NCBI RefSeq assembly: GCF_014203155.1
Contig: NZ_JACHIK010000005.1
Span: 124,001 to 188,000 of the forward strand
Length of the DNA stretch: 64,000 nt
Source of the DNA: Shinella fusca
GTDB taxonomy: Bacteria > Pseudomonadota > Alphaproteobacteria > Rhizobiales > Rhizobiaceae
Reading direction: 5' to 3'
Both the position numbers and the translations under genes were made by a program. Position 1 is the stretch's first letter. Every line of letters begins with the position of its first letter. Shown in pieces: positions 27,149 through 64,000 of the stretch. Under the pieces are notes generated by a model. The model saw only the letters and a list, made by a program, of their open reading frames with translations, was not told the origin of the DNA and did no database searches.

Positions 27149-28456
27149 ATGACCCAAACCCTTGTCCGAGGACGCCTGCTCTCCTTCCTGCGCCGCCCTG
27201 AAGCGATCGACGACACGGCGAGCTATCGCTACGAGGAGGACGGCGGCCTGCTGGTCGAGGACGGGATGATCGTGGATGCCGGCCCCTATGCGGCGGTGCG
27301 CGCCATGGCGGCCGCCGATGCGGAGGAGATCGACCACCGGCCGCATCTCATCCTGCCCGGCTTCATCGACACACATGCGCATTTCCCGCAGATGCAGGTG
27401 ATCGGCTCCTATGCCGCCAACCTCCTCGAATGGCTGAACACCTATACGTTCCCGGAGGAATGCCGCTTCGTCGAGAGCGCGCACGCCGCCCGCATCGCCC
27501 GCCATTTCTACGACGAGATGATCCGCCACGGCACGACGACCGCCGTCGCCTATTGTTCGGTGCACAAGGCTTCGGCCGACGCCTATTTTGCCGAAGCCCT
27601 CAAGCGCGGCATGCGCATGGTCGGCGGCAAGGTGATGATGGACCGCAACGCCCCGCAGGGCCTGCTGGACACGCCCGAGACGGGCTATGACGAGACGCGC
27701 GCGGTGATTGCCGAGTGGCACGGCAAGGGCCGCAACCACGTCGCCATCACCCCGCGCTTCGCCATCACCTCGACGCCCGCGCAGATGGAGATGACGGCCG
27801 CGCTCGCCCGCGAATTCCCGGACCTCCACATCCAGACGCACCTTTCCGAGAACCGCGACGAGATCCGCTTTACGAGCGAACTCTACCCGGAGGCCGTCGA
27901 CTATACGGATGTCTATGCGCGGTACGGCCTGCTCGGGCCGAAGAGCCTGTTCGGCCATTGCATCCACCTCTCCGAGCGCGAGGCGGACGCGATGAGCGAG
28001 GCGGGGGCGGTCGCGGTGCATTGCCCGACCTCCAACCTCTTCCTCGGCTCCGGCCTCTTCCCGCTCAAGAGCCTGTCGCGGCGGGAAAGGCCGGTGCGCG
28101 TCGCCGTCGCCACCGATGTCGGCGGCGGCACCAGCTATTCCATGCTGAAGACGATGGACGAGGCCTACAAGATCCAGCAATTGCTGGGCGAGCGGCTGAA
28201 CCCGTTCGAGAGCTTCTACCACATGACTCTCGGCAATGCCGAGGCGCTGTCGCTTTCGGACCGCATCGGCACGCTGGAGCCCGGCACCGACGCCGACTTC
28301 GTGGTGCTCGACGCGGGCGCGACGCCCGCCATGGCGCTGAAGATGGAGGTGACGCGCTCGCTCACGGACGAGCTCTTCCTGCTCCAGACGCTCGGCGACG
28401 ACCGCGCGGTGCGCGAGACCTATGTGGCCGGCAGGCCGATGAAGGCGGGGCTTTGA
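27149..28456 (+). CDS. guaD: Guanine deaminase
   Basis: Zinc amidohydrolase of 435 aa converting guanine to xanthine. Metal ligands are in PGFIDTHAHFPQ (near residue 70), THLSENRDEI (His), FGHCIHLSE (His) and VATDVGGG (Asp). The segment VHKASADAYF and length match GuaD rather than chlorohydrolases. RBS AGAAGGAAG precedes the ATG. It supplies xanthine to the xanthine dehydrogenase that xdhC matures and ends 9 bases from the convergent allA. Confidence 0.92.
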   Translation: MTQTLVRGRLLSFLRRPEAIDDTASYRYEEDGGLLVEDGMIVDAGPYAAVRAMAAADAEEIDHRPHLILPGFIDTHAHFPQMQVIGSYAANLLEWLNTYTFPEECRFVESAHAARIARHFYDEMIRHGTTTAVAYCSVHKASADAYFAEALKRGMRMVGGKVMMDRNAPQGLLDTPETGYDETRAVIAEWHGKGRNHVAITPRFAITSTPAQMEMTAALAREFPDLHIQTHLSENRDEIRFTSELYPEAVDYTDVYARYGLLGPKSLFGHCIHLSEREADAMSEAGAVAVHCPTSNLFLGSGLFPLKSLSRRERPVRVAVATDVGGGTSYSMLKTMDEAYKIQQLLGERLNPFESFYHMTLGNAEALSLSDRIGTLEPGTDADFVVLDAGATPAMALKMEVTRSLTDELFLLQTLGDDRAVRETYVAGRPMKAGL

Positions 28457-62859: not shown

Positions 62860-62936
62860 GCACCCGTAGCTCAGCTGGATAGAGTGTTGGATTCCGATTC
62901 CAAAGGTCGTAGGTTCGAATCCTACCGGGTGCGCCA
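62860..62936 (+). tRNA. tRNA-Arg (anticodon CCG)
   Basis: A 77-nt gene with encoded CCA. Acceptor arms GCACCCG / CGGGTGC, D arm GCTC...GAGT, anticodon stem TTGGA / TCCAA with loop TTCCGAT (anticodon CCG, reading CGG), T arm GTAGG-TTCGAAT-CCTAC. All stems pair. An integrase gene lies 203 bp downstream, and the 3' half of this tRNA is the probable attachment site. Confidence 0.96.
62892..62936 (+). mobile_element. Probable attL within the tRNA-Arg 3' end (element boundary)
   Basis: The sequence from the anticodon loop to the CCA end is the usual crossover for tyrosine recombinases that integrate into tRNA genes. Base composition drops right after it and a recombinase follows. The second copy (attR) would be outside the window, so exact limits cannot be set. 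Confidence 0.6.
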
Positions 62937-62999
62937 TTGAACTAATTGATTTCATTGACGTATCAGCTTTCGCTTGCCCTCGTGTGCAACGGAAATATG

Positions 63000-63021
63000 T
63001 TAGCTCAGTCTTAGCTCAGCA
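63000..63021. repeat. Paired 11-bp direct repeats, pair 1
   Basis: TTAGCTCAGTC directly followed by TTAGCTCAGCA between the tRNA and the integrase gene. Arm-type recombinase binding sites have this form. Confidence 0.5.
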
Positions 63022-63083
63022 GCGCATGCCGTTCGGAATTTCTCAATGATTTCAATGTAGCGTCCCGGGGCTCGGACACGGAG

Positions 63084-63105
63084 TTAGCGCAGTTTCAGCG
63101 CAGCG
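63084..63105. repeat. Paired 11-bp direct repeats, pair 2
   Basis: TTAGCGCAGTT directly followed by TCAGCGCAGCG, a variant of the pair at 63000-63021 with the same 11-bp period, 84 bp further on. Confidence 0.45.
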
Positions 63106-63139
63106 CTCCGACGAAAGTAACTCCGTTGGAGCCTAGGTT

Positions 63140-64000
63140 ATGTTGCAGCGTACCGAATCGCCGAATACCCCTTTCACGCTTTTCCAGCGCGAAGGCACCC
63201 GCAATTGGTCCATGCGCTATTCGCTCGGCGGCAGGCAGATCAAGAAGTCGCTCGGCATCGCTGACTATGATTCTGCTCTCCAGCGCGCGAACGAGATTTA
63301 TCACGAGCAAAAATATCGGCATAAGCAGGGCCTATCACTGGTCCCGCACGCCTTCCATGATGTCGCCGAAGAATTCATAGAAAAGGTCTGCGCGGAAGCT
63401 GAGCGAGGTGAGCGCAGCCATTATCACCCGACATTCTGGCCGCCGATAATCCGGCGCTTTCCTGTTGCATACTTCGGGGACAAGGCCATCGACCTCATCA
63501 CGACCGCCGACGCCGAACGCTATCTGGAATGGCGCAAAACCTATTGGACGACTGGGCCGGGATCGAAAATCGAGAAAATCCGTTGCGAGCGGGAAGATGG
63601 CCGCGTCTTCTCCCGCGCTGCCCCGCGCAAGGTCGCTGCACTGACGACCATGAAGGGCGAGATGGTCATTCTCCGCGAGCTTTTCCGTCAGGCTTCACGA
63701 TGGGGCTATTGCAAGCCTTTGGAGTTACCAACCGTCGAAGCGAGAAAAAAGCCAGACAATCGCCGTCCGGGCTTCAAACCAGAAGAATACGAAAAGCTGA
63801 TTGCCAAGAGCATTGAGCGCATTAATGAACACCACACAAATCTGAAAGTCATCAAGGCCAAGGATGGCCGTGTTTGGACACAGAAAGCCGTTACGGAAGG
63901 CATCCGAGCTGACCGCGTCCGATTGCACGCTTACATCGAGCTCTTGGCAAATTCCGGCCTGCGCCCCACCGAGGCTAAGAACCTGACCTGGGGCGATATT
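63140..64000 (+). CDS. Phage-type tyrosine recombinase (integrase), truncated by the window edge
   Basis: Open from ATG 63140 to the last base (287 codons, no stop). The N-terminus FTLFQREGTRNWSMRYSLGG is an arm-binding-like domain; residues about 80-190 form the SAM-like core-binding domain; the catalytic domain begins near 215 and the window ends just after box I, ANSGLRPTEAKNLTWGDI, which carries the first catalytic Arg. The remaining Arg/His/Tyr residues lie beyond the edge. Codon use is visibly less GC-biased than all other genes here, indicating transfer. It probably catalyses integration at the adjacent tRNA-Arg. Confidence 0.88.
   Translation, partial: MLQRTESPNTPFTLFQREGTRNWSMRYSLGGRQIKKSLGIADYDSALQRANEIYHEQKYRHKQGLSLVPHAFHDVAEEFIEKVCAEAERGERSHYHPTFWPPIIRRFPVAYFGDKAIDLITTADAERYLEWRKTYWTTGPGSKIEKIRCEREDGRVFSRAAPRKVAALTTMKGEMVILRELFRQASRWGYCKPLELPTVEARKKPDNRRPGFKPEEYEKLIAKSIERINEHHTNLKVIKAKDGRVWTQKAVTEGIRADRVRLHAYIELLANSGLRPTEAKNLTWGDI

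Follow-up and report, generated by a model that had tools for sequence, protein, structure and literature searches.

An element of 22,650 bp at the tRNA-Arg(CCG) gene of Shinella fusca, from a family with a conserved backbone and varying defence cargo

Introduction

Does the tRNA-Arg(CCG) gene near the right edge of a 64,000-nucleotide stretch of the Shinella fusca genome mark one end of an integrated element, and what would such an element carry? The stretch, which we call the window, covers C5:124001-188000 of the 4.85-Mb draft genome. A first-pass annotation, made from the letters of the window, had placed the left boundary of an integrated element at this gene, in an arrangement described as typical of genomic islands, ICEs and prophages. 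Islands that target tRNA genes combine a tyrosine integrase beside the tRNA, repeats of the tRNA 3' end, a regenerated tRNA gene, foreign composition and mosaic cargo.

We are highly confident that an integrative genomic element, 22,650 bp long, occupies tRNA-Arg(CCG), is presumably mobilised by its integrase and carries exchangeable defence cargo. It has an integrase at the left end, repeats of the tRNA 3' end and paired repeats at both ends, foreign composition and a backbone shared with relatives, and native sequence resumes directly after the attR of one relative.

Results

The target tRNA gene and the integrase

The only tRNA that ARAGORN calls in the window is a complete tRNA-Arg(CCG) gene. 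A tyrosine recombinase gene follows on the same strand at 203 bp, just as the first-pass annotation had read it, with ARAGORN, the open reading frame and Pfam in agreement. The features of the window are:

62860..62936, + strand: tRNA-Arg(CCG), complete gene, the integration target (ARAGORN)
62891..62946, + strand: attL core, direct repeat of attR (C5:209541-209596), 91% over 56 bp
63001..63019, + strand: putative integrase arm site 1, TAGCTCAG-TCT-TAGCTCAG, exact
63085..63103, + strand: putative integrase arm site 2, TAGCGCAG-TTT-CAGCGCAG, one mismatch
63140..64000, + strand: integrase (tyrosine recombinase), first 287 of 484 codons, continuing to C5:188594

Classification of the full recombinase had been suggested as a check. 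The complete gene (C5:187140-188594) encodes a tyrosine recombinase of 484 amino acids by its matches to Pfam Phage_integrase (E = 6.9e-10) and the PHROGs integrase family (E = 2.6e-25). Residues R275, R387 and Y419, which we take to be catalytic positions, are unchanged across 13 aligned members, Shinella fusca included. The lower GC and different codon use noted for the part inside the window hold for the whole gene: its GC is 0.555 compared with 0.660 for window positions 1-62936, none of 308 native windows of 1,455 bp is as low, and its codon adaptation to native genes (0.428) falls below all 40 native open reading frames tested (minimum 0.468), which were chosen by length and by GC at each codon position. 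On plasmids the integrase has distant matches only (6 plasmids, <60% identity).

Element ends, tRNA alleles and putative arm sites

The first-pass annotation had predicted that the 3' end of the tRNA (about 62892-62936) would recur downstream. It does: positions 62891-62936, the most strongly conserved part of the attL core, running from the anticodon loop onwards, are found again at C5:209541-209586 with 44 of 46 bases identical and 2 mismatches. This attR closes an element of 22,650 bp (C5:186891-209541, core to core); its GC is 0.535 compared with 0.660 for native DNA.

The two tRNA differences between attL and attR pair with each other in the T-stem and so constitute a compensatory change. 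The Shinella fusca tRNA has T-stem form c (GTAGG/CCTAC) and the attR has form a (GCAGG/CCTGC). Among 19 genus relatives, form b (CACAGG/CCTGT) occurs in 14, form a in four and form c in one. Form c was seen only at tRNAs that precede a family integrase (Shinella fusca, G017, G066), and none of the 16 genus relatives lacking a family integrase at the site has it. The attR cores of other members have form b in all 10 cases read, and the tRNA and attR forms differ in five of the nine members with both ends read, as expected if the tRNA 3' half brought by the element displaces the resident one. The last tRNA bases are also altered in three members (G062, G064, G069). The Shinella fusca attR has neither form b nor the form of its own tRNA, and its first 54 bp are 100% identical to the left end of the G012 island.

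Aligned element ends show paired direct repeats of the form TAGCNCAG-N3-TAGCNCAG. The window contains two such pairs and 100 shuffles contain none (mean 0.00); the right-end pair lies at L006:6473, with a match in 1 of 200 shuffles. With ≤2 mismatches allowed, each of the 12 members with a left core read has left pairs +109 to +112 and +193 to +196 from that core, and a right pair occurs at -67 from the right core in nine of 11 right ends scanned, the exceptions being G066 and G068. A few more matches lie at other positions, including some near -212 and two, in G070, that are distant from any core. The fixed geometry of these pairs resembles that of integrase arm sites, and we infer that the integrase binds them. 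Beyond the attR of the G061 island lies another left arm (positions 27834-27944, L144) whose arm site at +111 is exact, so tandem members probably exist.

The site in relatives and the DNA beyond attR

Of 20 genus relatives, 18 keep the upstream transporter gene and the tRNA together; G016 has them on two separate contigs, and the match in G006 is limited to the tRNA end. A full-length integrase relative is present at this tRNA in three of the 20 (G012, G013, G017), so the recombinase is not a fixed neighbour of the gene, as its reading as part of an inserted element had implied. In seven of 19 relatives searched within 20 kb of the tRNA (6.5 kb for G006), a conserved downstream block begins between about 0.4 kb (G009) and 17 kb past it.

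A comparison with empty sites, also proposed earlier, agrees with an insertion. G009 has a near-empty site, and in G065 the 232 bp after attR align position for position (1-232 to 1-232, 92.7%) with the DNA directly after the tRNA in G011; as this match starts at the first base, attB is fixed for the G065 member. The comparison yields no unoccupied copy of the Shinella fusca junction itself. When the flanks of 11 attR sites were compared with 16 relatives, G065 alone gave a long match, G069 and G012 gave short ones (29 bp and 26 bp), and eight gave none, Shinella fusca among them.

We rejected the idea that conserved chromosome starts at the Shinella fusca attR, because the flank shared with relatives resumes at about C5:233461, 23.9 kb further on. 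The intervening DNA falls outside the element as bounded here:

C5:209597-233460 (L006:6597 to L122:10460): accessory stretch of 23.9 kb between attR and the conserved flank

Its GC is 0.633, and it encodes LeuA, an AraC regulator, an RTX-type/DUF5801 protein of 3,097 amino acids, a GH6 enzyme, BcsB and BcsN. That the DNA past attR differs from the conserved flank of the relatives weighs against our main reading. The RTX gene contains 98- and 114-bp repeats (L006:14584-14969), and its region includes 92 N, probably an assembly gap.

Two other relatives have distinct arrangements at this tRNA. In G019 (L116), left-arm sequence of the family follows tRNA-Arg with no integrase and then gives way to other DNA, probably the scar of a lost element. 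In G001, a different insert of 14.4 kb (L105, 133-14577) has phage-tail-like genes, as judged by eye, and a relative of the tyrosine recombinase at its far end.

A family with a conserved backbone and three slots

Fourteen integrase relatives were confirmed when 84,980 species genomes were scanned by pattern, and the genomes of 60 relatives gave more. We compared 13 members (Shinella fusca, G012, G013, G017, G061, G062, G064-G069 and G071). The layout is mostly fixed: integrase, slot A, DUF6641, DUF2958, slot B, short recombinase, slot C, attR. The tRNA-Arg(CCG) gene lies upstream in 12 of the 13, the G071 contig having none, and DUF6641 and DUF2958 are each present in 12, the G062 contig ending before both. 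The short recombinase, a protein of 189 amino acids inside the element that consists of the catalytic domain only, is found in 11 members; in a check of 11 integrase-bearing genomes at E ≤ 1e-20, it was absent from those of G062 and G064. The G065 element is in three pieces of unsure order, with a flagellin gene adjoining DUF2958. Because both the integrase and the short recombinase occur twice in its genome (also seen as G138), the G065 contigs may combine two elements. An Aurantimonas relative that is more distant occupies tRNA-Met, and integrases of about 50% identity sit at tRNA-Phe(GAA), some with DUF6641.

Among 297 genomes of the bacterial family, which include Shinella fusca and at least four genomes considered above (G012, G013, G065 as G138, G070 as G308), 13 have the integrase (E ≤ 1e-60), 12 the short recombinase and 11 both, leaving two and one with either alone (Fisher p = 2.8e-17, a value that ignores shared ancestry). 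The two integrase-only matches cover just residues 1-238 and 1-321, and two of the 13 integrases are just 38% identical. Narrow searches of open-access PMC returned no description of this element family.

Slot A

Nine of the 13 members have a flagellin in slot A, with conserved ends and a variable middle. The Shinella fusca copy has 570 amino acids (C5:188872-190584, using the start found in relatives). In a tree of 37 rows, from which five of 36 search matches were left out, seven island flagellins and three off-island ones make up a 10-row group that is separate from the flagellar-cluster genes (bootstrap 92, SH-aLRT 97). Five rows are short or remote and have long branches (G012_C1_1119659, G061_C5_76272, OWN_C11_61786, G067_C26_454496, G017_C1_4101434). 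Because the off-island flagellins of G066 fall inside the group, the island label requires two changes on the tree, not one. Phage records gave one weak match, to a fecal phage. The slot A flagellin probably changes the cell surface.

Flagellins of the island type outside the tRNA-Arg islands occur in G017 (L177, C1:4101434) and G066 (L173 and L194), and one of them adjoins a gene for a 215-amino-acid partner that is also seen in slot A. Slot A of seven other members holds a related protein of 542-563 amino acids, which Pfam identifies as a serine recombinase in the single case tested; it is not seen in the Shinella fusca element.

Slot B

Slot B of Shinella fusca encodes a 461-amino-acid protein, DUF6626, a 169-amino-acid protein, an NMT1-like binding protein, a TGT-like protein and an 880-amino-acid protein with a C-terminal glycosyltransferase. 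Four members (G012, G065, G067, G069) have an AAA-ATPase gene and companions instead. Aligned with the resident tRNA TGT, the TGT-like protein shows the landmarks DSGGF, a second Asp and the Asp of an FD motif; D87, S88, G89, G90, F91, D124 and D279, which we take to be the TGT catalytic residues, are invariant in a six-way alignment that includes the resident enzyme. Profile comparison places it far from TGT: the hhalign probability is 8.8% (E = 0.0038), and the Pfam TGT model matches one relative at E = 0.042.

The TGT family occurs in five of the 297 genomes, and all five also have the short recombinase and an integrase relative. A glycosyltransferase relative lies beside the TGT gene in five members (Shinella fusca, G061, G064, G066, G071) and at two of four other TGT loci within a 1.5-kb flank; G068 has only a 511-amino-acid part there and G017 none. 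Among 50,697 phage records, 13 from named phages have relatives of the TGT-like protein. One is the Sinorhizobium jumbo phage Phosso (34%), where the gene directly precedes a primase and a helicase; 11 are Pseudomonas records of the PA5oct kind (33%), where genes for DNA polymerase and a QueE-like protein lie no more than about 6 kb away; the last is a Vibrio phage. Phosso is also the sole phage match of the G071 glycosyltransferase in this collection (45%; 39% for the Shinella fusca glycosyltransferase). Its two relatives lie at separate places, and their presence in one phage supports a shared pathway. A TGT-like protein that shares 49% identity with the PA5oct one is encoded on a viral metagenome contig (L157:8001-9566), which also has DNA polymerase and SpeD-like genes recognised by eye.

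DpdA enzymes insert 7-deazaguanine into phage DNA (Hutinet et al. 2019, PMC6884629); the main text of that paper has no word starting "glycos", and the passages of PMC11945000 consulted do not mention PA5oct. Searches of open-access PMC gave no paper joining DpdA, glycosyltransferase, 7-deazaguanine and DNA modification. The TGT/glycosyltransferase module probably carries out a nucleic-acid modification, possibly an undescribed one, and the pair may make a sugar-bearing 7-deazaguanine in DNA. A fuller and quite tentative version, which we hold to be doubtful on balance, is that slot B is responsible for a hypermodification not described before: its enzyme, a diverged form of DpdA, would place 7-deazaguanine in DNA (less likely in tRNA) and the linked GT-A-like glycosyltransferase would add a sugar, with Phosso carrying both against restriction and the elements marking their own or the host's DNA beside exchangeable restriction systems. 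No preQ0 gene was recognised in the element.

The glycosyltransferase model, built on two sequences (G071, G064), has low confidence (pLDDT 46.9); the Foldseek matches listed for it, of which one reaches E ≤ 0.001, belong mainly to GT-A enzymes and to IspD, which looks related, and weakly suggest a GT-A-like fold. PDB searches with profiles of the TGT-like protein, the 461-amino-acid protein, the glycosyltransferase and the 511- and 580-amino-acid partners gave no credible match. A comparison of these two partners gave no support for a relationship (hhalign probability 0.85%), and neither has a phage match. The 461-amino-acid protein shows HLH and YCLK motifs, HUH-like by eye in the alignment; it has no match in Pfam, PDB or the plasmids, and its structure model (pLDDT 29.7) was discarded as unusable.

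Slot C

Slot C of Shinella fusca encodes an ABC permease, a 356-amino-acid protein, a RelA/SpoT-like protein, Vsr, a C5-methylase, McrC and McrB. The first-pass annotation had supposed that the cargo could hold symbiosis, defence or metabolic genes, and McrBC, Vsr and the C5-methylase bear out the defence part of that guess. PADLOC matches occur in slot C of nine of the 12 members in which this slot is seen, Shinella fusca included. The scan of relatives covered 30 slot C proteins, with G066 outside it, and 12 of the 30 had no match at E ≤ 1e-5. The relatives' slot C contents, by PADLOC where not stated otherwise, are:

G061: Type I methylase and specificity genes
G069: Type I R-M
G068: LmuA and LmuB (Lamassu)
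G071: short Argonaute with SIR2 partner; Type IIG enzyme
G062: Type IIG
G067: methylases and PDC-S21
G013: C5-methylase
G017: weak restriction-type match; Vsr and methylase by similarity

PADLOC gave no match in G012 (one protein scanned) or G065 (three scanned). Methylase models match broadly, so some of the matches represent methylases and not complete systems.

DUF6119 proteins recur in slot C (L149:8990-10861 in G069, L119:5317-6960 in G013, and a relative in G012); they have no PADLOC match and make a candidate defence gene. The G065 slot C (L150, L151) is a run of large proteins of up to 1,127 amino acids with almost no Pfam matches; none of the three scanned matches a defence model.

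Discussion

Of the three classes named at the outset, the genomic island stands. The Pfam matches of 17 element proteins include no relaxase, conjugation or phage structural gene, and PHROGs, searched with 10 element proteins, returned the integrase and families of unknown function only, so that neither an ICE nor a complete prophage is supported. We rejected the ICE reading on the lack of relaxase and type IV secretion genes among the Pfam matches, and the prophage reading on the lack of capsid, tail and terminase genes in both searches. In favour of a defective or satellite prophage, the integrase lies at a tRNA, the small genes of the backbone have no assigned function, the TGT and glycosyltransferase do have jumbo phage relatives, and the insert in G001 shows phage-tail-like genes at this same tRNA. 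We nevertheless judge such an origin very improbable: the PHROGs result goes no further than the integrase and families of unknown function, lysis genes are missing from the Pfam matches along with the structural ones, and a pattern-based scan of IMG/VR confirmed no integrase relative. It is also unlikely, in our view, that the flagellin, the transporter pieces and the TGT module are chance captures with no function for the element. The ABC substrate-binding and permease genes do resemble stray metabolic cargo and four of the 13 members lack the flagellin, but the island flagellins form a group of their own, and all five of the 297 genomes with the TGT family also have the short recombinase and an integrase relative.

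The history of the Shinella fusca site is a closer matter. Form a at its attR implies either some previous event or another native allele, and the allele together with the match to G012 makes an earlier integration at this site likely but not proven. A composite origin, which we put just short of an even chance, would go further: an older family element with allele a would have arrived first, a newer one with allele c would have inserted between the tRNA and the older element, and the 23.9-kb stretch would be a remnant or replacement of the latter. The allele and the identity of the first 54 bp of attR to the left end of the G012 island fit such a succession, as does the second left arm after attR in G061. 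No backbone gene, however, was recognised in the 23.9 kb by tblastn (past C5:223001 only) or by Pfam in seven chosen open reading frames, and allele a also occurs at the tRNAs of G002, G007 and G020 with no family integrase following, so a might simply be the lineage's own allele.

For the integrative element as bounded here, the integrase would recombine the attP of a circular form with the tRNA gene. The crossover would probably lie within the anticodon loop, where the repeat begins and where TTGGA and TCCAA flank TTCCGAT. The tRNA 3' half that the element carries would keep the gene functional and give it the T-stem allele of the element. The success of the element would come from exchangeable defence, slot C varying between members and holding mostly restriction and other defence genes. 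The short recombinase, conserved between slots B and C, might act in cargo exchange or in the control of excision, which is a guess.

The element is of an ordinary kind, a tRNA-integrated island with well-defined ends; its slot plan, travelling flagellin and TGT/glycosyltransferase pair are unusual. The first-pass annotation had anticipated neither the flagellin nor the TGT/glycosyltransferase module, the backbone of the family or the distance of the conserved flank from attR. It belongs to a mobile-element family with defined ends, putative arm sites and slots that spans several genera, and related integrases sit at three tRNA types (Arg, Phe, Met). The slot plan offers a simple search for new anti-phage systems, namely to read the DNA from the short recombinase to attR, which encodes several proteins that match no defence model. 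The TGT/glycosyltransferase pair, both with relatives in a Sinorhizobium jumbo phage, predicts a sugar-bearing 7-deazaguanine, and an island-borne flagellin lineage points to a possible connection of filament variation with phage or plant recognition.

Compared with known systems, the Shinella fusca element agrees with tRNA-targeting islands in its integrase beside the tRNA, its 3'-end repeats, intact tRNA, foreign composition and mosaic cargo, and differs from such islands in general by the backbone pair DUF6641-DUF2958, the internal recombinase of 189 amino acids and the conserved three-slot plan. The slot B enzyme shares with DpdA and DpdA2 the TGT-like catalytic landmarks, judged against the resident tRNA TGT, but is statistically remote from TGT and is paired with a glycosyltransferase. 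Gamma-mobile-trio (GMT) islands are mobile and combine conserved backbone genes with exchangeable defence cargo. The family described here is built on the same principle, and the NCBIfam GmtY model matches its short recombinase alone, weakly (E = 2.4e-6, 27 bits compared with a 340-bit cut-off); unlike GMT islands, it is alphaproteobacterial and targeted to tRNA genes.
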